From assembly GCA_021792595.1 (NCBI GenBank), contig JAJYUI010000007.1:1-32390 (forward strand): a stretch of DNA of 32,390 nt. Reading direction: 5' to 3'. The translations under genes were made by a program, and so were the position numbers. Below are positions 9,366 to 32,230 of this stretch, piece by piece. The stretch is from Thermoplasmata archaeon. Lineage in GTDB: Archaea; Thermoplasmatota; Thermoplasmata; Thermoplasmatales; Thermoplasmataceae. Every line of letters begins with the position of its first letter. The stretch's first letter is position 1. A model generated the notes under the pieces. It saw only the letters and a program-made list of their open reading frames with translations. It was not told the DNA's origin and searched no databases.

Positions 9366-9405
9366 GCTGAGCAAAAATTCTTAAACTCTGTTGCATGAAT
9401 TCAGC

Positions 9406-12400
9406 ATGGCCCATTCAATGCCCTTTAGGCTAATCGTGATTCTTGTGGCTACACTTATGGTGTTTTCGTTTCCGTTTTCATTTTCGTCATTCTCCTCCAA
9501 CGGCGGATCGAACCTGCCCCAGGCTCCGGTGCATCAGTTAAGTTCTGTGGGACATTCCACCGCAATACCAGGATCAATAAGCGTTTCCAGCTCGAATATA
9601 TCCTTTACCGGAAATGTTGTATCTGATTTTGCCGGGCACATGGTTGCTTCTAACAACAACGCGAGCGCATGGGGTGCAACCAACAATATCTCCAGGCTGT
9701 ATGTTGCATTCAACTCCACATATCTTTTCATAGGGGTTTATGAGAATATTTCCGGAAATTCGCTCTATGTTTTCATGAGCAACAATTCCGGAACGCCATA
9801 TGGAACCACAAATATAACAGGGCTGAACACCTGGAGCAGGAACATTAATTTCACCAACCCGATGAACTATATGGCAACTGTTTATTCACCCAATTCCGGT
9901 CCATCAGGTCAGAATGCCTTCGTAATAAACAGTTCAGTTGCAAAGAGCGACACTTCCCCTTTCGCCACCACGATTACGAGTTATTTCAGGTTCGGATCTG
10001 CCATGAATACAACTGAAATCAGGATTCCGTGGACATCTCTTTTCCCTTACGGTCACAGCGGAAACCTTGACATGAACATATCCGCTTTTGTTGTGGGCAG
10101 CGGGGGTCCCTGGCTCGGAACCGGCATTCCATTTTCGCAGAAAGGCACTTATAACAGCGGATCGCAGAGCGAGTTCACCATAAGCAACTCTGTCAGCATG
10201 AATTTTGGAACTCTAACGGTAGCCACTTCGCAGCATATTCCGATAAACCTTGCCATAGTCTTTAACGACCACCAGCCCCTGTACAAGATTGTCGGCTCCC
10301 AGAATTACCAGCTTCCCTGGACTGAGGCCCACGCTACTGCAGAATACATGGTGCAGCCGTTGATAGCACACATGTATCCTCAGATAAACGTTACGTACGA
10401 ACTTTCTGGTTCATTACTCTACCAGCTGAATAATATCTCCTCAGACCCGCAATACAATAATACGTACATTCAGGGTGCATTCATTCCCTGGAGTTCGCTG
10501 AACACCACCCAGAACCTCACATACCTGGACAACCTGACTTATGATTATTTCAGCATTCCTGGATACGTGTTTTCACTTGGAGAACCGGCTTCAAACCTGT
10601 ACGCAAACATACACAACAACTGGACGGCTGGAAAAAGGCTCAACGCTACCCAGTTCGAGGATGCTAAAGTCCTATGGTTTCTTTATGACATAAGTACCTC
10701 CCTTGTGGAAGGAAAGCTTGGGGTACAGTGGAAGAACAGTACTATCTGGGCAATGCACAACCAGACAAGCTTCACTCAGGCAGACCTTGTAAAAGTACTT
10801 GATTACTCAAGGTGGCTCACAGGAAGGGTGATGAACGCATTCTCCGCCGACATGATGGGAAACGTCACCGGCAGCAATAATGTGGAACTTATGACAACGC
10901 CGTTCTACCACCCGTTGATGCCCCTCCTGGTCACGAACAGCATATCCGGCCCGCAGGGGAGTATATCCAAGGGAGCCTATAATGCTGATCTACTGGCGCA
11001 ACTTGAATACGGAAAGGGCCAGTTTTACAACTACTTTGGAATGACGCCGACCGGTGTGTGGTCGCCTGAGGCAGCAGTTTCGAACGCGACCGTTTCTCCC
11101 CTCAACCTGTCCGGGTACAAGTGGACAGAATCATCTGAATGGACTCTTCAGCAGAGCGGTGTTAATGCTCTAGACAGCGGAAAAGGCGGAAACGTGACCC
11201 AGTTGCAAAACCTGTACACCCCGTACAAGGTGATGGGAGCCAACGGGACCTCCGTAACTATGTTCTTCAGGGATGATTATCTCTCCAACGCCTGGGCATT
11301 CAATTACGGTAGCATGAGTACATCCGCCGCAGTGGCGAGTTTTATCAACTACCTGAAGGGAGTTTATAACTCAATACCTCTGAAAGATCACAACAATACA
11401 TTGGTGACGGTTGCCCTTGACGGGGAAAACTGGATGTTCATGTCCCCTTTCGCGAATGACGGAATACCCTTCCTTGATGCACTTTACTCCGGCCTGGAGG
11501 CAAACTCATCATATATACACACCGTAACCCCGCAGCAGTATCTTGCTACCCACTACCAGCTTCCAGTGATACACAATCTGGCTTCAGGAAGCTGGAACCA
11601 GGGCAATGGAGTTGCAGCACCCTATCAGGGAGACATATCCCTGACCCAGTGGTCTGGATATCCTGTGCAGGACTTTTACTGGGAGGTACTCAACGAGGTG
11701 CGTGGAATGGTTATGCAGTACCGGGTCCAGAACGGACTGACCCAGCTGGGTAATTATACGCTGGTAGAGCAGAATCTCACGGCCTCAGGAAAGGAGGGGA
11801 ACTTCACAAGAGCGATGAACGCTATTTACGCAGCAGAAGGCAGTGACTGGTACTTCACTGCGGCCCCATGGGACATTACCGGTTCCAACATGATCCCGTT
11901 CGACTATATCTTCAAGGGTGATCTCATCTATGCTCTCCACCAGATCGGAGAGGCTATTCCAGATTATCTTACGACTCATTCGATGCCGCCATATCCTGCA
12001 TTCTCCATGGGGCAACCTAACCAGGCACATACACCAACCATGGGAGGCTATCCGCAGACGTCTTCCAGTACAGGCATAGGAACTGCGTTTTCGGTGACTT
12101 CCAATAACGGATGGCAGGGTTCTGCTGTATACATGAACAATTCATCGGCTTCCACTCCGCTTGGAATCACCCAGATGGATATCGCATACAATCCCAGCAC
12201 ATTTTATGTCCAGATCTTCGTTAATGGAAAGGCAACAAGTTACATTGCAAATTCCAGTATCCAGATATCACTGTATTTTTCCGGTTCCGGAGTATTCAAC
12301 CCGTCAATGGGGAACGTCAGCTTTGATGTGCCTGGTGCGAATTACAATTCAATTCACGGAAATGCCCCGCTTGACTTCCCTGCAAACTACATGATCTCAC

Positions 12401-14397
12401 TCTCTTCGTATTCCTTCAATTCGAAAGGAGTGGGGGCATATGTGGTCTACTCCGCTGCTGGTTTCGGGAAGTGGAACACAATGGTACAGGACGCCAATAC
12501 ACCCGCGTACATAGGGCAAACGATCCAGTTTGCAATTCCATTCACCTATCTGGGAATGGTTCCTGGAGACACCTTCTACATGGCAGCAATGGCATCGACC
12601 AACCCAGGACCGGGAATCCACCCTGCAGTCTATTCAAGCTTGACACCAGTCCTGGTTAATGTTCCTGCCTCACTGGGAAAGTTCTACCCGATTGCTGCAA
12701 TACACAATACCGTTCCAGATAATGGACCGGGGAATTACACCTACCCAAATCAGCCAGCACAGATTCCAAACGGGTCTCTGGATATGCAGTGGATCAACGT
12801 ATCGATGAACAGCTATGACATGATGTGGAATTTCACTTTCGACCAGCTGTGGAATATCTGGAATGGCCCACTTGGGTTCTCCAACCAGATTGTGCAGGTT
12901 TTCATCAATGAGAACAACGGCTCAGGTTCGTCTTCCCTTGGAGCAGGTCCCAACGCAAATGTGAACAGGCCATGGCAGTACTCCATCTATCTCTCCGGAT
13001 GGGCGGCATATATTGCCTCCTCGTCCGGTTCTCAGTATACTAATGGCATTGTTGCAAAGGCAAATCTAACCTCAAGGACCGTGTCAATGGAATTTCCTCT
13101 TTCCATAATAGGAGGAAATCCGAGGTATTACGGTTATACAATCGTATCCGGTTCATATGATGGCTATGGCACTAACGGATGGAGAATAGTTGACAAGGTG
13201 AACACCTCGAATGGAGGATGGCAGGGAGGCGGAGGTGATCCTCCCTGGAGTTCAAATATATATAGCTACATAGCCCCGGCAACGGTTGGCGAAGGGAGCC
13301 AGACACAGCAGCAGGCACTCACTTACAGTTCAGGAAAAATCCCTACGATTACACCTGTCTTCCTGCCACTGCTCAACAGTTCCCTGGGCATGGCGCAATT
13401 CAACTATACTTCTTACAACGGATCAGTGCTTGTAAGGAACAGCAACACATACTACGACATGTTCGTCTCCAACATGTCGGGGTCAAACAACCTTTACTTT
13501 TCCTCCTCCACCGACATGATCGGCTGGACAAACCCAACAGAGGTGAGATCAATTTCCGGCATCGATCACTTTTCAGCGACCACCATAAATGGATCAGTTT
13601 ACGTACTCTTTAATGAACGAGCTAGTCCGGATAAACTGAACATTGCCAGGGTCTCACTTTCTTCCGCTACTTCGACCATGCTCGGTTCATTCAATGCCAC
13701 ATTTGCTATCCTCAGGGTTTCAGCCGTGAACAATAACACAGTTGGCAATTATGTAGCCATATCCAACGGGAGCTATGCACAATTCCTGCGTGTTGCTTTA
13801 ACGTCGTCAAAGGCCACAGTGTCTGCCCTGGCCGGTTACTCCGGGTCCGGATACGCATCCATAGACCAGTTTGGCGGGGAACTCTTTGCGGCAGTGATCA
13901 ATGCCAGCAAGGTACTTTTCATAGACCAGTTCTCTACCTCCGGTAGCTTCCAGAAGGCAGTAAAGATGAACACAAGCGGCGTGGCTGACTTCTCTATTGC
14001 AATCAGCGATTATGGAAACCTCTGGATAGCATATGCAAACAGTACCTCGCCAGGTTCTATTTTCTTCACGAACACTTCCTTGAATGGTGAGTGGACATTT
14101 TCACCCCTTACTGCCATGTCTCTTTCAGGGTCAGACGTTTACGAGATTTCAATCTTGACCGTTAACCATGGTGGTACAAGCAGCCTGATAATGACCTGGG
14201 GTGCTGCCAGTTTAACAGGGAATTCTATTTGGGCATTGAATTCCACGTTGTCCTGGAGTAATGTGGCCATCAAGCAAAGCTCGGCAACGGCTCCTAACTC
14301 ACTGCCGCTTTGGGTATACATAGTGGTCGGCGTGGTTACCGCTGCGGTAGTTGCAACAGCATCTTATTACCTGTTCTACAGGAAAAAGAAGGGTTAA
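9406..14397 (+). CDS. Secreted, C-terminally membrane-anchored GH57 glycoside hydrolase (amylopullulanase-like) with N-terminal DOMON/CBM9-like, glucodextranase-C-like and sialidase-like repeat regions
   Basis: Signal-like N-terminus (FRLIVILVATLMVFSFPFSF). GH57 motifs FNDHQPLY, TGVWSPEAAV, KWTESSEW, FFRDDYLS and DGENWMF. DNGPGNYTYP stretch typical of glucodextranase-C domains. C-terminal TM then RKKKG. The ORF track starts at TTG 9391; ATG 9406 gives better spacing from the TATA box. Confidence 0.88.
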   Translation: MAHSMPFRLIVILVATLMVFSFPFSFSSFSSNGGSNLPQAPVHQLSSVGHSTAIPGSISVSSSNISFTGNVVSDFAGHMVASNNNASAWGATNNISRLYVAFNSTYLFIGVYENISGNSLYVFMSNNSGTPYGTTNITGLNTWSRNINFTNPMNYMATVYSPNSGPSGQNAFVINSSVAKSDTSPFATTITSYFRFGSAMNTTEIRIPWTSLFPYGHSGNLDMNISAFVVGSGGPWLGTGIPFSQKGTYNSGSQSEFTISNSVSMNFGTLTVATSQHIPINLAIVFNDHQPLYKIVGSQNYQLPWTEAHATAEYMVQPLIAHMYPQINVTYELSGSLLYQLNNISSDPQYNNTYIQGAFIPWSSLNTTQNLTYLDNLTYDYFSIPGYVFSLGEPASNLYANIHNNWTAGKRLNATQFEDAKVLWFLYDISTSLVEGKLGVQWKNSTIWAMHNQTSFTQADLVKVLDYSRWLTGRVMNAFSADMMGNVTGSNNVELMTTPFYHPLMPLLVTNSISGPQGSISKGAYNADLLAQLEYGKGQFYNYFGMTPTGVWSPEAAVSNATVSPLNLSGYKWTESSEWTLQQSGVNALDSGKGGNVTQLQNLYTPYKVMGANGTSVTMFFRDDYLSNAWAFNYGSMSTSAAVASFINYLKGVYNSIPLKDHNNTLVTVALDGENWMFMSPFANDGIPFLDALYSGLEANSSYIHTVTPQQYLATHYQLPVIHNLASGSWNQGNGVAAPYQGDISLTQWSGYPVQDFYWEVLNEVRGMVMQYRVQNGLTQLGNYTLVEQNLTASGKEGNFTRAMNAIYAAEGSDWYFTAAPWDITGSNMIPFDYIFKGDLIYALHQIGEAIPDYLTTHSMPPYPAFSMGQPNQAHTPTMGGYPQTSSSTGIGTAFSVTSNNGWQGSAVYMNNSSASTPLGITQMDIAYNPSTFYVQIFVNGKATSYIANSSIQISLYFSGSGVFNPSMGNVSFDVPGANYNSIHGNAPLDFPANYMISLSSYSFNSKGVGAYVVYSAAGFGKWNTMVQDANTPAYIGQTIQFAIPFTYLGMVPGDTFYMAAMASTNPGPGIHPAVYSSLTPVLVNVPASLGKFYPIAAIHNTVPDNGPGNYTYPNQPAQIPNGSLDMQWINVSMNSYDMMWNFTFDQLWNIWNGPLGFSNQIVQVFINENNGSGSSSLGAGPNANVNRPWQYSIYLSGWAAYIASSSGSQYTNGIVAKANLTSRTVSMEFPLSIIGGNPRYYGYTIVSGSYDGYGTNGWRIVDKVNTSNGGWQGGGGDPPWSSNIYSYIAPATVGEGSQTQQQALTYSSGKIPTITPVFLPLLNSSLGMAQFNYTSYNGSVLVRNSNTYYDMFVSNMSGSNNLYFSSSTDMIGWTNPTEVRSISGIDHFSATTINGSVYVLFNERASPDKLNIARVSLSSATSTMLGSFNATFAILRVSAVNNNTVGNYVAISNGSYAQFLRVALTSSKATVSALAGYSGSGYASIDQFGGELFAAVINASKVLFIDQFSTSGSFQKAVKMNTSGVADFSIAISDYGNLWIAYANSTSPGSIFFTNTSLNGEWTFSPLTAMSLSGSDVYEISILTVNHGGTSSLIMTWGAASLTGNSIWALNSTLSWSNVAIKQSSATAPNSLPLWVYIVVGVVTAAVVATASYYLFYRKKKG

Positions 14398-19224: not shown

Positions 19225-19299
19225 ACAGTCATTCTCCGTCCCGGTAAAACAATTCTGTCTTGGAAAACCTTAAGGCTTCCAATATACTATGTGATTCGA

Positions 19300-19947
19300 A
19301 TGAGAAGGGTGGGTGTCTTTACCCAGGACTTCAAATTTTATCATGACGTGATCGAGACTCTTAGATCATGGTCAATCCCTTTTGTGAGCATGGAGCATCC
19401 CTATGAATTCTCCAAAGACGTGGTCATAGTACTCAGTTCTGCAAAGGACAGGGATTATGGTTCACTTCAGGAGAGGTTTTCAGATGCCAAGCACGCTGTC
19501 AGGCATTCGTTCGCCAGGCTGCTAGGAAAGAGTTTGTTTAGTTCTCTGGTACTTGGGATCGATCCGGGACCAAGACCAGGCCTTGCTGCTGTTGGAGACG
19601 GTGTGCTGACTGAAGCCATGGAGTGTCCGAGCATTGAAGCTTTGGCTGCAGAGGTTTCTGACATGGTATGCCAATATACATACAGAGACGTGGTCATAAG
19701 AATAGGAAATGGCGATAAACCAAACAGGGTGGCGATACTGAAGCTCCTCAAAGAATTAGGACTACTTATCCTGGAAGTTGATGAGAGGGGAACAACGATA
19801 AAGTATCGTAACGAGAATAATGCCATTTCAGCCGCCAAAATCGCAATGGCTGTTTCCCTCACAAACAATGGAAAGAAGCGCTCCGGGAAAGGGAGGAGTT
19901 TTGTCGAAAGGAACTTCCTGACGATCCAGGCAGTTCTTGGAAGTTGA
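19300..19947 (+). CDS. Uncharacterised protein with possible RNase H/RuvC-like fold
   Basis: LVLGIDPGPRPGLAAVGDG resembles the first strand/Asp motif of RuvC-like nucleases, followed by DVVIRIGNGDKPNR and VDERGTT. ORF track starts at GTG 19291; ATG 19300 is the alternative. Confidence 0.7.
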   Translation: MRRVGVFTQDFKFYHDVIETLRSWSIPFVSMEHPYEFSKDVVIVLSSAKDRDYGSLQERFSDAKHAVRHSFARLLGKSLFSSLVLGIDPGPRPGLAAVGDGVLTEAMECPSIEALAAEVSDMVCQYTYRDVVIRIGNGDKPNRVAILKLLKELGLLILEVDERGTTIKYRNENNAISAAKIAMAVSLTNNGKKRSGKGRSFVERNFLTIQAVLGS

Positions 19948-20333: not shown

Positions 20334-21119
20334 TCACTTCTTTCTCCATTTGGGTGCAGACAGCCTGCCAGCGCGCTTTCCTGATGAGAGAGCAAGCAGA
20401 ACACCAAAGACGATCGCTATTGCCGAGGCATAGTAAATCCAGTCAAAATTCGGTGGAGTCCCGTAATAGAAGTGTTGCGTGAAAGAAATCTGGCCATTTA
20501 CACGAACAAGGGCATTGCTCACATTTATTGTAAGGCTGTGCTCTCCATCACTTAGATGTGGGTAAACGATATCTACGGATACATTCTTTGTACTTTCTGG
20601 TGCTAGAGCCCTGATGAATGATTTCCCTACATGATTGCCATCAATGTAGTAGTTTACTGTCACATTGTAGATATATATGTAACTCGGGTTGCTTATGGTT
20701 GCCTTTAGTATCACTGGCTTGAAAACACTTATCGCGAGGCTGCTGTTGGCCCTTTCGCTTGTCTTACCTACATTTACTGTGGTAGATACAAACAGGTAAA
20801 GTGTCTCTGCAGAATCTGGGGCAGTTGCATTTATTCTAAAGTATGGACTGGATTGGGTGAAGTTATGGAAAGTACCGGAAGGAGAGATACCACTGAGATT
20901 ATATGCTGCAAAGTAAGCGGTGACACTGTAATTTTCCCAGCCATAAGTGCAGTTTATAAACACCGTGAAATTCTGTCCAGAATAAACACTGCTTGGTGCA
21001 CTAACATCAACCTGGTATATGTTCGGATGGGTCTGCGGAGTTTGTGAGTGGCCAACCCCCACTGGAATCGCGAATAACATCAAGCATGAAACAAGCAAAG
21101 TCAGTACAATACCTCTCAT
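20334..21119 (-). CDS. Small membrane-anchored extracellular protein with CARDB-like domain
   Basis: Signal peptide (IVLTLLVSCLMLFAIPVGVGHS), beta-rich N-glycosylatable ectodomain, C-terminal TM (WIYYASAIAIVFGVLLALSSG) and basic tail. ATGA overlap with the upstream AglB ORF. Confidence 0.75.
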   Translation of the reverse strand: MRGIVLTLLVSCLMLFAIPVGVGHSQTPQTHPNIYQVDVSAPSSVYSGQNFTVFINCTYGWENYSVTAYFAAYNLSGISPSGTFHNFTQSSPYFRINATAPDSAETLYLFVSTTVNVGKTSERANSSLAISVFKPVILKATISNPSYIYIYNVTVNYYIDGNHVGKSFIRALAPESTKNVSVDIVYPHLSDGEHSLTINVSNALVRVNGQISFTQHFYYGTPPNFDWIYYASAIAIVFGVLLALSSGKRAGRLSAPKWRKK

Positions 21120-24100
21120 TTCTTTCTCCTCCCCCTGAAACCGGCGATTGCCAGTCCCGCTATGATCGAAGCAGCGATTATTCCTATTCCAATATACAGC
21201 GTGTCATATGGATTTCCAGTGTAATTGGAGATAGATTCCCCAACCGGATAGGTCTTTAGAACCGGTAACTGTGGATATTGTGGAACAAGCGAGAGAGATT
21301 TCACCTGTCCATTAAGGGTTCCCAATATGGTCACGCTTGTTATGTATCTTTGTTTCATGGAAGAGTTTGGAGAAAGTTCCAGGTAAAGTGAAGCAGTCTG
21401 GTTCATGCTTAGTGAGACTTTAGTCACAGACTTGTTATTGTAGATGAAACTGAAACTCCACCCGTAGGAAGAGTAAAGTGATCTGTTAATGGAAAGAGCG
21501 ACCTTCTCTGGCCCGTTCCCCGTATTCTTCACTGAGAACTTAATGAGAATGTTCTTCTCGTGAGGAACGCCCACGGTGTTGACAGAAGTCATAGAAAAGT
21601 TGTAGAATTGCTTGACGGTCGCAGTAAGGTACCCGGTATAGTTTCCAGTTCCATAGTCAACCCTGACCGGGATTTTATCCTTTCCTGATGCTGCATACTT
21701 TGAGATTATCACTGAAGCATTCATGGTCACATTCTGCCCAGGTGAAAGCATCAGTTTGTACTTGCTGAATGTAATGTTCCAAGATCCATTTCCGGAATGA
21801 AGCGTGACGTTTGCAAATGTGTGTCCTGCGTTTTTCAGATAGAAAGTATATGCTGCCGTGCTTCCATTAAGAACAGATCCGGATGGACCTGAGAGTTGGC
21901 CCAGTGCAAGGTTGTAATGGTAGATCCTTTCAAGCTGGACAAGTACATAGGAACCATAGGTTATTGCCTGAGTGACGTTTGTTCCATATATCTCTGTGAA
22001 CTGAATTCCCTGATATGTCGAATTAAATTTCTCAGAGGCCGAAAATTCAAATGACTCCATTGGGAGGAATATCGATTTCTGTGAACTGTTAATCACCATG
22101 GTAAAACTGGTATGAATGATAGTGATATTCGTGTTGATCACTTTCCCGGAAATAGTTACGGACACCGGTACAGTGGTTCCTGGGATCATAGTTACATTGT
22201 AAATTGTTGGGGCAGAGAATGGGTTGAGTGTTTCAGAGCCCACGAAAGCAAGTCCTGAAGCTACATTGGTGACATATAGCGAGTAAGTGCCAGCTGATAG
22301 ATTCATCCGGTACCAACCGGTACCGTTAGTATAGGCTTGCTTGACAAAGGCGCCAGTTGAATTAAAGACACTCACGTTAGTATACTGGTATGGTTTACCA
22401 TTGTACAGCACCAGACCGTAGAGAATATCATGAATTGTCGAGACCGATAGTGTCAGGTTGATAGTAGTATCAGAAGCAAGAGATACATGCTTCGATCCGC
22501 TCAAGCTATACTGTCCTGTGGAATTAGAGTAGTTTAGTAGATAGCTAACCCCGTAATTTCCTGCCGGTAAAGAGTAGGTTCCTTCACTAAAGTGAACAAC
22601 CAGCCCCTTGTAATCAAGAGAGTAATTTCCTCCCTTTACTGAGAGGGTATTCTCAAGTGCTACATAATAAGACTTCCCAAAGGAAGGGGAAAATGTCGTA
22701 TTCTTTCCAATATACAGGCGCGTGATGTTAGTCCCGATGGGGTTGACTGAATAAACGGTGTAAACTCCAGCTGGTACCTCTGAACTTCCGTGATAAGATT
22801 CCCCCGCGCTGCTGAACAGCGTATAGTTGAGAGAACCATTCTCTTGGAGCCTTACGAATGATTTCACAGGAATGGTTATTGAAACATTGCTCGCAGGAAT
22901 TGATACAAGTTGCGTCTCTGGAGCAATGGATGCATCAAGGCTGCTGAATTTTACCATGTATTCTCCGGCTGGAACGACCCCGGTGAATGAGCCATCACTC
23001 AAAGGTAAAGTGTAATTACCTCCTGGGCCGTCAAGATATACAGTACCGTTGTATGCTGACTGTTTTCCATAAAGGTTGATTGCCCCGCTGAGCGTGAATG
23101 CAATCACCTCTGCATTCATGGTAAGGTTCCTTGAACTCACTGACTTGGTTATAGGTAAGAAATAAGGCGATTTGTATGAAACTGAGAGAAGAGAGTCGTG
23201 AACGTAAGCCAACGGGATGTCAAGGGCAACGAAACCACTTTTGGGCACAGACTGGAACGTCAGCGGAGTACCCTGGTAACTCATTTCAAGAATTCCGTTA
23301 TCCAATAATGATGATTTCGCGGAATTTGTGGAATACATGGAAACATTGAGCATTACAGCAGGTTGCAAGGACATATTAATGGCCAAAGATGCTTTGACGT
23401 ATGTTATCTTCTCGGCAGAATAGATCTTCCCCAGAGAAACGCCGTGCGATTGAATGGTATAGGTACCCCTCGGTACATAAATGGAAGTCAGGGAAGTTGG
23501 AGTGTTGTAATCAACCTGTATTATTCCAGAGCCACTGAGTACCTCATAGTAGCCCGTGTATTGTACACTGGTGGGAAGGTAGGTTGTAAGATTGATATAA
23601 CTGCCACTCGAAAGGCTCAGTGTAAGGTTCATGTTGGCGTTAAGATCAAATGTTTTGAAAGCCACCTGATTTCCACGATGCACGTAGGCTGTATAAATGC
23701 CCAACGGTAATGAAATGTTGAAATCTCCCTGAGAATTCGTAATGGCCTGTCTGGCTTCGTTTTCCTGTCCACTCTGATAGAAATATACGTAAACAGGGGA
23801 ATTCATTTGCGTCACACTACCTGTGATCCTAGCAGAAGCGGACGGGGTGAGATTCAGGGTTTGGTTCAAATTCCAAGACTTGAATGAAGCCTGAACGAAG
23901 GCTGAAGTTATTCCTTGACCTGAAAGGTAAAGCGAGTATGAGCCTGGTTGAACCCAGAATTCCGAAACACCTGTCGAGTTTGTCACGTTAGTCTTGGTTA
24001 TTCCAGAACCATTGAGAACTATGTTTGCACCCTTAATCGGGTTTCCATTCAATAATGCTCTTGCGAATACTGAGTCATATTGTATGTTGAGATTCTCCTG

Positions 24101-27100
24101 TACAACTGCACCCTGTGTTAGGGTAAAGTTCGCTATGTTATGGTATGTATTGCCACCCACTGTCGCATTGATTAAGTAAGTATAGGCTGGTATATTATTC
24201 AGAACATAAAGTCCATTTTCAAGTGAACTGGTAAAGGAAACCTTGTTTGTTGTGTTGTAGAACGTGACTGAACCCCTGCTGATTGGAATGGAGAATGACT
24301 TCGCACTCCCTCCTTTTTTTGATCCAGGATTAGTGAGGTATGAGAAAGAGAGTGTCCCAGACACCTTTGTTGACTTCAATTGGTAGTTCTCTGTAATGTA
24401 GTAAGATGGAAGACCGGTAGTCTGGTTGTAACCGAGTGACTGCCTCTCCGCCTGCTGCTGCGATACGTGGAAGTGAATGTACTGTATCGCGTTTGATCCT
24501 GAATCGAATACCTTGTTGTACTTTCCTGTGCTTATCAATACAGTGTCGTTTCCAGGTACAGCCGTGAGATTATAGTAGCCACCAGCATTCGTGATGGTGC
24601 TCTCATGCGGTATTCCGTACTGGTCAAAGAGTGTAACGTAGAGACCCTTGACCCCCTGGCCACCATGCATTGAAACTTTCCCTGTCACTGTAGCCCCGGG
24701 GAAGTACCCCACTATTGGGTTTTCGCTGTAAATCAACTGGTTTGTTGGGGGGAATATGTATGTAGTACCAATATTATGTTTATGATCATAGTAAGCTGTT
24801 TGCAGAGGAATGATCTTCCATGCCGAGGTATGGTTCTGATAATCTGTGTAAGGATTCCATGGGATTCCCATGTACAGTATCTCGAAGTGACTCATGTTAT
24901 GTGCGGGCATTACTGAATAGGTAGTCTGCCCATAAGTTAACCCGGGAATGCCCGTCTTGTTGCCAGTATCGTAGGTAGAGTACCCTATAAGAAACTTGTA
25001 AATGGTTGTGTTATAGAAATCATGATTGTAAGTGATTTGATAGGTAGCTGGTATTGCACCAGATGGCATCTTGTTGAGAGGGTACGTCGAACCGTTCGCC
25101 AAAACCGCAGAGATCTGATAATAATTGTATGGAACTATTTCTCCATTCGCTGAATAGCTGGGCCTGTCGGTAAGGTATGTGGGTGCATAGAAGATACCCG
25201 GATTAACACCTGAAAGAGGCATAAGTCCATTTGGCACACCGATGTACTTGATATCATAGCCGGTTATAGATTCCAGATCTGATAGTAGAGAGACGATCAC
25301 AGAATCAGGGTATAGAGTCGAGAGTTGGCCGGATACAAGGGCAAAGTAGGCGTTAGATGCAGAGATTCCGGGTATGAATTTTCCATATTCGCTGGGGTTC
25401 TTAGCGATAAGGTAGGAATACCCTCCCGGGTTCTGAAGGAATGACTTAATTGTCAAAGCCTCATTGGTCCCAAGATATTCTGAAAGAGCGTTGAACATTG
25501 CCGGAGTGAGCGCACTCCCATTATTCAGATATGAAGCCTGCAAGACTCTAGCGAGGAAAAGCGAGATTATCTGGCTCTGGTTCTGTGCCAGCAGAACCTG
25601 ACCAGCAATCTGGTAACCGTGCTGGAAGTCGTCTGCTACAGTTGGGTGCAAACCTTGTTGCATTTCCTGAAATCCATAATCCCACCATGACACGAAAGCG
25701 GGCTTCTTGTTCATTGGAAGGTTAGAATCCTGAGTTGAAAGCCAGTGGAATGCCTGAGAAAGCGGGTCACTTCCGTTTGTGATGTAAAAGCCAGATGCCC
25801 CAACAAATGACGCGTTGCTTGCAGAATATCCTGCAGGCCTCATGAATGATGGAAGATCGTTGTAAATTTGGGAGTTATAATTTCCAGCAGTATTAGCTGG
25901 AATTGAAGAAGCAATTGTGCTGAACCCCGAAGGAACAACGAGGAGAACAACAAGCGCAATTGTAAACAGTGCTGTGAGCCAGTTCTGGCCTCCCTTCAGC
26001 CTTCTGATCCCGGTTCTTGCAGTTTCGCGTTTTGAAACTTGTGCCCGTATCTTCATGATATCAGCAAAATACATCAATAGTGCAGCACCAAGAATTGCAT
26101 ATGCAGGAGCCGCAGTTATGTTGAATCTTGCGGCTGCAAAACTCATGTATATCGAGACCAGCGAGAATATGAGGAGGAATGATACCACATCCCTTCTTTG
26201 CTTAAGGAAAAGGTAAGCAAGGTAAGCAACTCCTGCCATTCCAAGTACGAACTGCGCAGGCCCGAAACCGGAGATGTACTGGCCAAGAGGTGGTGACGAA
26301 GCTTCAGCAATTGTTGCATATACCCTGTTCTTTATGAAGTACCCCTCGCCGCTCAGCAAGGTCGTCAGCAGGTGGGGATCAAAAAGCTGCACACCTATGA
26401 ATATCAGGCCAAAAATTACCACAAATGCGGGAAGGCTGAGAACCCAAGGTCTCCCAGAGAAGAAGGAGGCAAAAATTCCGAAAACTATAACTCCCAATCC
26501 GAGGAAAAAGGCTGGGTAAAACCACGTGTGAGAATATGTGGGGCTCAGGTTGAAGTAATAGTAGGCGCCCATCAGGAAGCCGAGACCTATCAGGAGAATT
26601 ATGAGATAGTTGATATAGAAAAGGCTTCTCTTCAGGAGCAGGTTTATGATCAACTGAAGGAATGCGTATATCAGGACGATCGCTTCTATGTAGGCATAGC
26701 CCTGCCATGCAAGCATCAATCCTCCAAGTGAAGCACCGGCTAAAAGACCGTAGATGGTGGCAAGCCTATTCTCAAGGACGAAGTTGCGAATTACAGAAGG
26801 CAATTTGGTGATTGTGTGGAAACTTATGTCCAGCCTATCTTTTTCAATAATATTGATAGCCCTTTCGAAGAAGTAGATAGTGAAGAAACCAAACAGAAGT
26901 TCGGGGGTATGAATCCTGGCATCTGAAAGTACGCCTGCAGAAAGGTTGCTTGGCATGAGGGTATATAGTATTGCTGCGACCATGCCAGTCTTCTTGCCGA
27001 AGGCTTCTGCAGCAATCAGATATATCGGAACAATGAGTATTGCCCCTACGAGTGCATCGAACTCCAGCAGCCCTACCTCAGCCGTGGTATATGCATTAAG

Positions 27101-27424
27101 GAACGGCGAGAGAAGCTCCGCTACAAAAACAATGGCCCAGTGGTAGAATGGTGCCCTTGGATTTGTTGCTCCAACAGGGTAATTCAACGCGTAATCATAC
27201 ACCAGTGAATGATGATTGGTGATGATGTAGTCGAGAACTCTAAGATTGTAATACGGGTCGCTTCCACCAGAAGTGCTGAAGCCCCCAACAAATGTAGCTG
27301 AATAAGAGTAGTAGTTACCAAGAAACATGTATATAATCATAAGGAAGAGGATAACTATCATCTCTGGACTGGACTGAACAAAGTTGCGGAATCTTTCGAG
27401 TGTAGACTGTTTGCTGTTCTCCAT
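21116..27424 (-). CDS. aglB: STT3/AglB-type dolichyl-phosphooligosaccharide-protein glycotransferase with a giant C-terminal ectodomain (2102 aa)
   Basis: Many N-terminal TM segments; GGSDPYYNLRVLDYI and SDARIHTPELL loops; catalytic-region motif SWWDYGFQEM. Long beta-rich carboxypeptidase-regulatory-like repeats follow, then NEW3/CARDB-like regions and a terminal TM with GRRKK. Confidence 0.9.
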   Translation of the reverse strand: MENSKQSTLERFRNFVQSSPEMIVILFLMIIYMFLGNYYSYSATFVGGFSTSGGSDPYYNLRVLDYIITNHHSLVYDYALNYPVGATNPRAPFYHWAIVFVAELLSPFLNAYTTAEVGLLEFDALVGAILIVPIYLIAAEAFGKKTGMVAAILYTLMPSNLSAGVLSDARIHTPELLFGFFTIYFFERAINIIEKDRLDISFHTITKLPSVIRNFVLENRLATIYGLLAGASLGGLMLAWQGYAYIEAIVLIYAFLQLIINLLLKRSLFYINYLIILLIGLGFLMGAYYYFNLSPTYSHTWFYPAFFLGLGVIVFGIFASFFSGRPWVLSLPAFVVIFGLIFIGVQLFDPHLLTTLLSGEGYFIKNRVYATIAEASSPPLGQYISGFGPAQFVLGMAGVAYLAYLFLKQRRDVVSFLLIFSLVSIYMSFAAARFNITAAPAYAILGAALLMYFADIMKIRAQVSKRETARTGIRRLKGGQNWLTALFTIALVVLLVVPSGFSTIASSIPANTAGNYNSQIYNDLPSFMRPAGYSASNASFVGASGFYITNGSDPLSQAFHWLSTQDSNLPMNKKPAFVSWWDYGFQEMQQGLHPTVADDFQHGYQIAGQVLLAQNQSQIISLFLARVLQASYLNNGSALTPAMFNALSEYLGTNEALTIKSFLQNPGGYSYLIAKNPSEYGKFIPGISASNAYFALVSGQLSTLYPDSVIVSLLSDLESITGYDIKYIGVPNGLMPLSGVNPGIFYAPTYLTDRPSYSANGEIVPYNYYQISAVLANGSTYPLNKMPSGAIPATYQITYNHDFYNTTIYKFLIGYSTYDTGNKTGIPGLTYGQTTYSVMPAHNMSHFEILYMGIPWNPYTDYQNHTSAWKIIPLQTAYYDHKHNIGTTYIFPPTNQLIYSENPIVGYFPGATVTGKVSMHGGQGVKGLYVTLFDQYGIPHESTITNAGGYYNLTAVPGNDTVLISTGKYNKVFDSGSNAIQYIHFHVSQQQAERQSLGYNQTTGLPSYYITENYQLKSTKVSGTLSFSYLTNPGSKKGGSAKSFSIPISRGSVTFYNTTNKVSFTSSLENGLYVLNNIPAYTYLINATVGGNTYHNIANFTLTQGAVVQENLNIQYDSVFARALLNGNPIKGANIVLNGSGITKTNVTNSTGVSEFWVQPGSYSLYLSGQGITSAFVQASFKSWNLNQTLNLTPSASARITGSVTQMNSPVYVYFYQSGQENEARQAITNSQGDFNISLPLGIYTAYVHRGNQVAFKTFDLNANMNLTLSLSSGSYINLTTYLPTSVQYTGYYEVLSGSGIIQVDYNTPTSLTSIYVPRGTYTIQSHGVSLGKIYSAEKITYVKASLAINMSLQPAVMLNVSMYSTNSAKSSLLDNGILEMSYQGTPLTFQSVPKSGFVALDIPLAYVHDSLLSVSYKSPYFLPITKSVSSRNLTMNAEVIAFTLSGAINLYGKQSAYNGTVYLDGPGGNYTLPLSDGSFTGVVPAGEYMVKFSSLDASIAPETQLVSIPASNVSITIPVKSFVRLQENGSLNYTLFSSAGESYHGSSEVPAGVYTVYSVNPIGTNITRLYIGKNTTFSPSFGKSYYVALENTLSVKGGNYSLDYKGLVVHFSEGTYSLPAGNYGVSYLLNYSNSTGQYSLSGSKHVSLASDTTINLTLSVSTIHDILYGLVLYNGKPYQYTNVSVFNSTGAFVKQAYTNGTGWYRMNLSAGTYSLYVTNVASGLAFVGSETLNPFSAPTIYNVTMIPGTTVPVSVTISGKVINTNITIIHTSFTMVINSSQKSIFLPMESFEFSASEKFNSTYQGIQFTEIYGTNVTQAITYGSYVLVQLERIYHYNLALGQLSGPSGSVLNGSTAAYTFYLKNAGHTFANVTLHSGNGSWNITFSKYKLMLSPGQNVTMNASVIISKYAASGKDKIPVRVDYGTGNYTGYLTATVKQFYNFSMTSVNTVGVPHEKNILIKFSVKNTGNGPEKVALSINRSLYSSYGWSFSFIYNNKSVTKVSLSMNQTASLYLELSPNSSMKQRYITSVTILGTLNGQVKSLSLVPQYPQLPVLKTYPVGESISNYTGNPYDTLYIGIGIIAASIIAGLAIAGFRGRRKK
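21140..24100 (-). repeat. Approximate span of repeated Ig-like/CarboxypepD_reg-like modules in the AglB C-terminal extension
   Basis: Recurrent pattern '...T-N-x-x-G-x-(F/Y)-x-(V/L)-P-x-G-x-Y-x-(L/V)-Y/K...' e.g. NSTGVSEFWVQPGSYSLYL, NSQGDFNISLPLGIYTAYV, SDGSFTGVVPAGEYMVKF, NGTGWYRMNLSAGTYSLYV. Confidence 0.6.
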
Positions 27425-31159: not shown

Positions 31160-32230
31160 TCATCTCAGGCTGTAAACAGAACCCCTCCATGTGATTTTGT
31201 GCATCCCGCCAGCGACCAGCAGATTCAACAGATAAAAGAAAGGCAAAATGAACGAACCCGGAATTATCATAGGAAACCTGAAAGGTATTCTTTTGAGCGT
31301 TCTCAGGACGTTTAGCAGGTAAGGAATAAGCAGCAAAAGGAAGAGCGGCGTCACCACAAATGAGAGGAATATCGCCATCGAGTAAAGAAGAATCTGGTTG
31401 AAGTAAAGTATGATTCCGTAATACAGTACTTTGCTTCCTGATGAGATCGACAGAGCGGTCTGCCTGTTTGACCACTCAAAAAAGGTTGCAAAGTCGTCGT
31501 CTGAATGGATCACTGCTCTTGCCTCGGGAGAATAATAGATTTGCAGGCCGGAAGCAAGGCATGCCTTTGTTAGGAAAATATCATCGGATATCTGGTTTCC
31601 AAATTCCAATTCCTTCCCGGAGAGAATTGATCGCCTGAATGCCAATGAACCGCCCCATGCAAATCTCGTAAGCTTACTCTCCATCATCCCTATCCCAATA
31701 GTCCCCCAAAGCGCCTTGAACCTAGACCAGAACCCCCCCACGGGTTCAAACAGCGGAAATGTGGTGGAAATGCCATACTTAAGGCTCATCAGTGGCTGAA
31801 CAAGTCTTTCAAGCCAGTCTTTCTCCACTGTAATGTCTGAATCTGCGATTACGATCACTTGCTCGGTGCTTTCAAGGAGTGCAGAATAGACAGCCCTAAC
31901 CTTTCCGCTTCCCCTAAGGTCTCCTGCTTCGGAAACAATGTATTCCAGTCCAACTTTCCTGAGAATTTCGCAGCTTGGATCATCCTCGGAGTCAACCACA
32001 GCAATTACGCTGTAATCCCGATATGACTGACGCATGATTGACTTGAGGTTCTCCTCAAGTGTAAGATCAACGCCCTTGCACGGCACTATCACCCTAATCT
32101 TGAAATCCGGCGCCTGGAATGATTCTGGTTTCCACCTGGGAACCTGCAAGGCACTGAAAAAAAGAAGAAGCAGAAACAGGTATGAAATGAAAATATAGAA
32201 TAGAATTTGAAGAACCAGGTCGCTGCTCAT
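31160..32230 (-). CDS. Membrane-associated family 2/21-like glycosyltransferase
   Basis: N-terminal TM; IRVIVPCKGVDLTLEENLKSIMRQSYRDYSVIAVVDS, ADSDITVEKDWLERLV, SDDIFLTKACLASG, EWSNRQTALS; C-terminal TM segments. Confidence 0.88.
   Translation of the reverse strand: MSSDLVLQILFYIFISYLFLLLLFFSALQVPRWKPESFQAPDFKIRVIVPCKGVDLTLEENLKSIMRQSYRDYSVIAVVDSEDDPSCEILRKVGLEYIVSEAGDLRGSGKVRAVYSALLESTEQVIVIADSDITVEKDWLERLVQPLMSLKYGISTTFPLFEPVGGFWSRFKALWGTIGIGMMESKLTRFAWGGSLAFRRSILSGKELEFGNQISDDIFLTKACLASGLQIYYSPEARAVIHSDDDFATFFEWSNRQTALSISSGSKVLYYGIILYFNQILLYSMAIFLSFVVTPLFLLLLIPYLLNVLRTLKRIPFRFPMIIPGSFILPFFYLLNLLVAGGMHKITWRGSVYSLR

Follow-up and report, generated by a model that had tools for sequence, protein, structure and literature searches.

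The archaeal enzyme AglB is generally regarded as an oligosaccharyltransferase (OST) of one subunit and about 600–1000 residues, in which a DK/MI motif serves the +2 Ser/Thr pocket. On the eukaryotic side, NOMO, which belongs to the BOS complex of the ER translocon, associates with nicalin and TMEM147. TRAP alpha/beta and OST48 are known, both generally and from published work (PMC11186639), as small single-pass Ig-like subunits of the eukaryotic OST and translocon. The AglB proteins of the Thermoplasmatales have been mentioned without reference to their size or domains (PMC3750248, PMC5155288, PMC10354927).

In the current study, we examined a stretch of 32,390 nucleotides from a Thermoplasmata archaeon (assembly GCA_021792595.1, contig JAJYUI010000007.1), hereafter called the window. 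It encodes an AglB whose best match, in both sequence and fold, is AglB-L of A. fulgidus (PDB 7e9s and 3waj). The A. fulgidus enzyme has 868 aa, whereas the window protein has about 1100 residues more, which are predicted to form approximately 12 added beta-sandwiches and a second transmembrane (TM) anchor. Our analysis indicates that this protein is genuine and represents a form of a known enzyme found throughout the class, and that a membrane protein encoded alongside it is strikingly conserved.

The aglB gene and its catalytic core

A preliminary reading of the window, made from its sequence only, had placed a giant AglB/STT3 protein of 2102 aa in one frame at positions 21116–27424. These coordinates proved right, and the strand, which had gone unstated, is the minus strand. 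Translation of the window shows that the frame is uninterrupted over all 2102 aa. The gene and its catalytic features are as follows.

21116–27424, minus strand: aglB, giant oligosaccharyltransferase of 2102 aa (ATG at 27424, stop at 21116–21118)
24725–27424, minus strand: catalytic module, residues 1–900, with an STT3-type multi-TM domain and an extracellular C-terminal domain predicted by AlphaFold and by PDB fold match
27257–27259, minus strand: D56, the first catalytic Asp (external loop 1), in GGSDPYY; Asp in 55 of 57 aligned class sequences, the remaining two being gapped
26303–26314, minus strand: TIAE motif of external loop 5, residues 371–374; T[IV]xE in 57 of 57
25670–25687, minus strand: WWDYGF motif, residues 580–585, within SWWDYGFQ (residues 579–586); conserved in 57 of 57

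A six-frame search of the 1.35-Mb assembly, which is 85% complete, returned aglB as its only STT3-family match, with a score against PF02516 (25.5 bits) that exceeds the cut-off of 24.5 for this family profile. Residues 24–650 also match TIGR04154 (175 bits, E 2.6e-51), the profile for the archaeosortase A-associated OST subfamily. The curated cut-off of that profile is 450 bits, which is reached by none of 349 class genomes, and thus the window protein, at 175 bits, is an AglB that lies outside this subfamily. Its profile match to A. fulgidus AglB has an E value of 3.7e-35.

The AlphaFold model of residues 1–1010, built from 57 class sequences (mean pLDDT 86.4), is predicted to adopt the multi-TM and globular-domain fold of AglB/STT3. 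The top solved structure found for this model with Foldseek is A. fulgidus AglB with a bound inhibitory peptide (7e9s, E 3.5e-24, TM 0.58/0.66), and eukaryotic STT3 and bacterial PglB come next. Features shared with the A. fulgidus enzyme include the STT3-type TM domain, the WWDYG and TIxE motifs, and the C-terminal globular domain.

Unlike A. fulgidus AglB-L, the window protein carries no recognisable DK-motif Lys. Crystal structures were needed for the identification of variant DK motifs elsewhere (PMC3703281). A candidate segment with the pattern D-x-x-[LM]-x-P, which appears to correspond to the DK motif, occurs in most class members. In this probable assignment, the putative motif position is occupied by Asp in 49 of the 57 sequences, by Pro in three and by Asn in three. 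The window protein is among those with Pro in place of the putative Asp (VPNGLMP, within residues 725–748; 25181–25252, minus strand).

The predicted extracellular arm

Beyond the core, the chain extends into a series of domains that we term the arm. The boundaries listed below were set by us from predicted strands and conserved motifs, and they should be considered approximate.

24455–24718, minus strand: domain D1, residues 903–990, with a strongly conserved DQYGIPH signature (motif, alignment)
22016–24373, minus strand: domains D2–D11, residues 1018–1803, ten predicted prealbumin/CarboxypepD_reg-like beta-sandwiches (Pfam, AlphaFold, motifs)
21239–22015, minus strand: domains D12–D13, residues 1804–2062, CARDB/NEW3-like, with N-x-G-[NS] at 1865 and 1967 (AlphaFold, motifs)
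21125–21211, minus strand: predicted C-terminal TM helix, residues 2072–2100, running into the basic tail GRRKK (AlphaFold; TM helix and basic tail in class orthologues)

On this count, the arm would comprise about 13 beta-sandwiches: D1, ten of the prealbumin/CarboxypepD_reg type and two of the CARDB/NEW3-like type. The model of residues 903–2102 (mean pLDDT 87.9) is nearly all beta structure before the helix at 2072–2100. Both the repeat ectodomain of roughly 1000–1200 residues and the second membrane anchor proposed by the sequence-only reading are therefore borne out, the former by the AlphaFold beta domains and Pfam matches and the latter by the predicted helix that precedes the GRRKK end. 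Its proposed domain types fared less evenly. Five stretches of the extension match CarboxypepD_reg (PF13620, E 2.9e-22) and a G-x-[YF] motif is conserved in most of D2–D11, whereas a Pfam search of the protein gave no match to the NEW3 profile, and the CARDB/NEW3-like call for the last two domains rests on the N-x-G-[NS] motif.

Short AglB proteins of sister classes likewise contain a segment resembling D1 (L136, where it reads DDYGIPH, and L137). For this reason, D1 probably belongs to the ancestral core, such that the arm proper would start at D2. No separate arm gene was seen among the downstream neighbours of these short AglB genes.

Like the arm, NOMO (9c7v) carries an extracytosolic string of prealbumin/CarboxypepD_reg-like domains followed by a C-terminal TM segment, and NOMO2 is the top match when the arm profile is compared with the PDB (E 2.7e-25). 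However, NOMO is a separate polypeptide whereas the arm is fused to AglB, and NOMO is absent among the top listed fold matches of the arm. A Foldseek search with the arm model recovered generic Ig-type strings only (TM ≤0.18). Furthermore, several domains of NOMO align to the same small set of arm domains. Since these alignments are not collinear, domain by domain, we attribute the similarity to a generic domain family and do not read it as a sign of orthology with NOMO.

Distribution and conservation across Thermoplasmata

The preliminary reading had considered the length of this AglB exceptional. A survey of lengths shows instead that the giant form is typical of the class Thermoplasmata. 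Open frames of aglB are mostly 2033–2134 aa in several families of the order and mostly 2.0–2.4 kaa across the class, and a methanogen-type family (f18) has frames of 1.83–2.0 kaa, plus one of 2555 aa and a few that are truncated. Named loci with a giant AglB include those of Thermoplasma, Ferroplasma acidarmanus, Aciduliprofundum, DHVE2 and the Methanomassiliicoccales. The TM helix and basic tail terminate the class orthologues that have an intact 3′ end. In one relative (L155, genome G070), a break divides the aglB frame into 1233-aa and 916-aa frames with the partner gene described below still next to them, reflecting either a sequencing error or a real mutation.

The presence of the arm in Methanomassiliicoccales methanogens also bears on the suggestion that the extension is suited to an acidic, wall-less cell surface. 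Given that these methanogens carry the arm too, such a surface is unsupported as its cause, and we rule out an acid-specific adaptation as the origin of the arm.

Two loci of the Acidiplasma group, from Acidiplasma and a close relative, encode naturally short AglB proteins (L082, 1442 aa; L083, 1425 aa), which lack approximately residues 1245–1936 and retain the last CARDB-like domain and the TM helix; the partner gene is kept as well. Most of the arm is thus dispensable in Acidiplasma, whose AglB keeps few arm domains, and the retention of the last domain and helix despite this deletion suggests that having the anchor is more important than keeping a particular arm length. Among sister families in the rest of the phylum, the frames measure approximately 0.9–1.4, 2.3–2.8 or 3.0–3.3 kaa; the short proteins end without a TM helix and the complete giants end with one. 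Some sister-family proteins (L141–L143 and L153, families f42 and f45) are longer, at about 2.8–3.3 kaa, with a C-terminal TM helix in those that are complete and no adjoining CARDB partner.

Within the family, identity to the window protein is about 50–60% in the core and about 30% in the arm, indicating that the arm evolves fast. When arms from distant groups were compared domain by domain, 9 of 13 domains matched their positional counterpart best (mean scores of 51 on the diagonal and 32 off it). This signal comes partly from D1, D12 and D13, and the middle domains, which are weakly distinguished, may have undergone some internal shuffling.

A conserved downstream gene for a probable partner

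The gene that follows aglB, which the preliminary reading had missed, encodes a probable partner of the enzyme.

20334–21119, minus strand: conserved partner, 261 aa, with a putative signal peptide, a CARDB domain, a C-terminal TM segment and a PKWRKK tail (next gene, CARDB match)

The signal peptide and TM segment were read from the sequence, and the two reading frames, from the partner ATG to the aglB stop, share 4 bp. Almost every class locus examined has a homologue after aglB, and the 4-bp overlap is usually preserved. CARDB is matched by 50 of 52 aligned members, and a PKWKK-type tail is characteristic of these proteins. At E ≤ 1e-15, members of the family occur in 58 of 58 genera and in 119 of the 121 class genomes, with one match per genome except for one that is split over two contigs. 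In 86 of 90 genomes checked, the gene is directly downstream of aglB. There are four exceptions: in three, the two genes sit on separate contigs and the aglB frame is shortened; in the other, a break interrupts the aglB frame and the partner still adjoins it. Adjacency was thus seen in every genome whose assembly permits the test. Outside the class, sister family f36 (G380, G387) has the partner beside an AglB of 2.37 kaa; it was not seen beside the other giant or short sister-family AglB genes examined.

Other neighbours are less constant. An upstream neighbour of aglB was found in 19 loci versus 76 for the partner, and the genes upstream (AAA_assoc_C, MarR-like, PheT) show no consistent linkage to aglB. 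A conserved 218-aa protein without a Pfam match (19291–19947, plus strand) is encoded convergently beside the aglB operon and occurs in 51 loci, and a family 2/21 glycosyltransferase (31160–32230, minus strand) lies near the aglB region.

With its signal peptide, Ig-like ectodomain, single C-terminal TM segment and cytosolic tail, the predicted partner resembles TRAP alpha/beta and OST48 in layout. Neither is among the best 60 PDB profile matches of the partner, and homology to them was rejected; its best matches are small beta domains that are either uncharacterised or from cell-surface proteins (such as 3idu, 2kl6 and 2l0d), along with weak matches to antibodies.

Possible roles of the arm and its partner

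The reading that we tentatively favour, and regard as plausible though somewhat short of probable, is that a membrane-tethered OST arm and a dedicated small subunit serve as an accessory unit for acceptor handling or docking. The AglB core would move a lipid-linked glycan onto Asn-X-Ser/Thr, and the chain would continue outside the cell as about 13 beta-sandwiches before rejoining the membrane via the second anchor, forming a tethered arch near the enzyme. Together with the CARDB type-I membrane protein, the arm would provide a built-in accessory unit that holds or guides emerging acceptor polypeptides by the catalytic site, attaches the enzyme to the secretion machinery, or both. We base this proposal on the intact catalytic motifs and fold, on the occurrence of the arm in the same frame throughout the class with its domain order kept (the 9 of 13 correspondence), on the retention of the last CARDB-like domain and TM helix in Acidiplasma, and on the partner being found in 119 of 121 genomes and downstream of aglB in 86 of 90. 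Arguing against it are the fast evolution of the arm, the few arm domains of the Acidiplasma protein, the absence of the partner beside the giant AglB genes of several sister families, and the generic, non-collinear nature of the NOMO2 similarity.

A more specific proposal, which we consider doubtful at present, is that Thermoplasmata possess a two-gene OST complex. Here, Ig-like accessory functions that in eukaryotes reside in separate OST and translocon subunits would be fused to the catalytic subunit as the membrane-tethered arm, supplemented by one dedicated CARDB type-I subunit.

The extension contains 50 N-X-S/T sequons versus 20.1 ± 3.8 in shuffled sequences (2.5-fold; the reversed motif occurs 20 times), in agreement with the sequon richness noted in the preliminary reading, and the arm is probably a glycoprotein in acidophiles. 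That reading had further suggested that the enzyme may glycosylate itself. However, two other probably exported window proteins are also enriched (55 versus 29, and 10 versus 3.3), and therefore sequon enrichment is no special mark of the arm and does not distinguish self-glycosylation as a special property of it. The first of these counts belongs to a probable exported protein of 1668 aa (9391–14397, plus strand) with GH57 glycoside hydrolase and Glucodextran_C (SLH-like) domains.

The sequons also bear on the possibility that the arm is a surface scaffold or glycocalyx element, whether S-layer substitute or glycan carrier, whose glycosylated sequons would allow an enzyme fused to it to help build the coat. 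An S-layer is absent from most cultured Thermoplasmatales (PMC5155288), the STT3 protein of P. torridus (PTO0786) was detected in an experimental secretome (PMC8345856), and arm sequons exceed the shuffle expectation in acidophiles (2.16-fold), DHVE2/Aciduliprofundum (2.52-fold) and methanogens (1.41-fold). Nevertheless, the methanogens carry the arm with few sequons, the enrichment extends to other exported proteins of the window, and an enzyme would be an improbable bulk coat protein, such that we judge this explanation unlikely.

Equally, the arm might be a spacer that arose by domain accretion, in which duplicated D1-like domains are tolerated because they are extracellular and have little specific function beyond stability. 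Low conservation of the arm, the internal deletion in Acidiplasma and the range of AglB sizes in the phylum (frames of about 0.9 to 3.3 kaa) speak for such a spacer. Against this must be set an arm length that is near-constant over many class families, the domain-by-domain correspondence between arms, and the conservation of both the anchor and the partner gene, and we do not expect this account to prevail. Finally, a frameshift, assembly or gene-fusion artefact, as might be suspected from the 86 contigs of the source assembly and the aglB frame break in relative G070, is excluded for practical purposes, because many independent genomes, including several that consist of a single contig, carry the same uninterrupted frame.

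Implications

The sequence-only reading had counted an extension that is shared by relatives and already described against its novelty. The extension is indeed shared, and no description of the arm or its partner was found in the open-access literature searched. Alignments of AglB that are trimmed to the core hide the arm architecture. Throughout the class, and also in its cultured species, the AglB in use appears to be about twice the usual size and to be encoded together with a conserved membrane protein. If AglB and this partner form a complex, it would represent a multi-subunit OST outside eukaryotes with accessory parts of its own, and the role of OST accessory domains could then be tested by trimming a single polypeptide.
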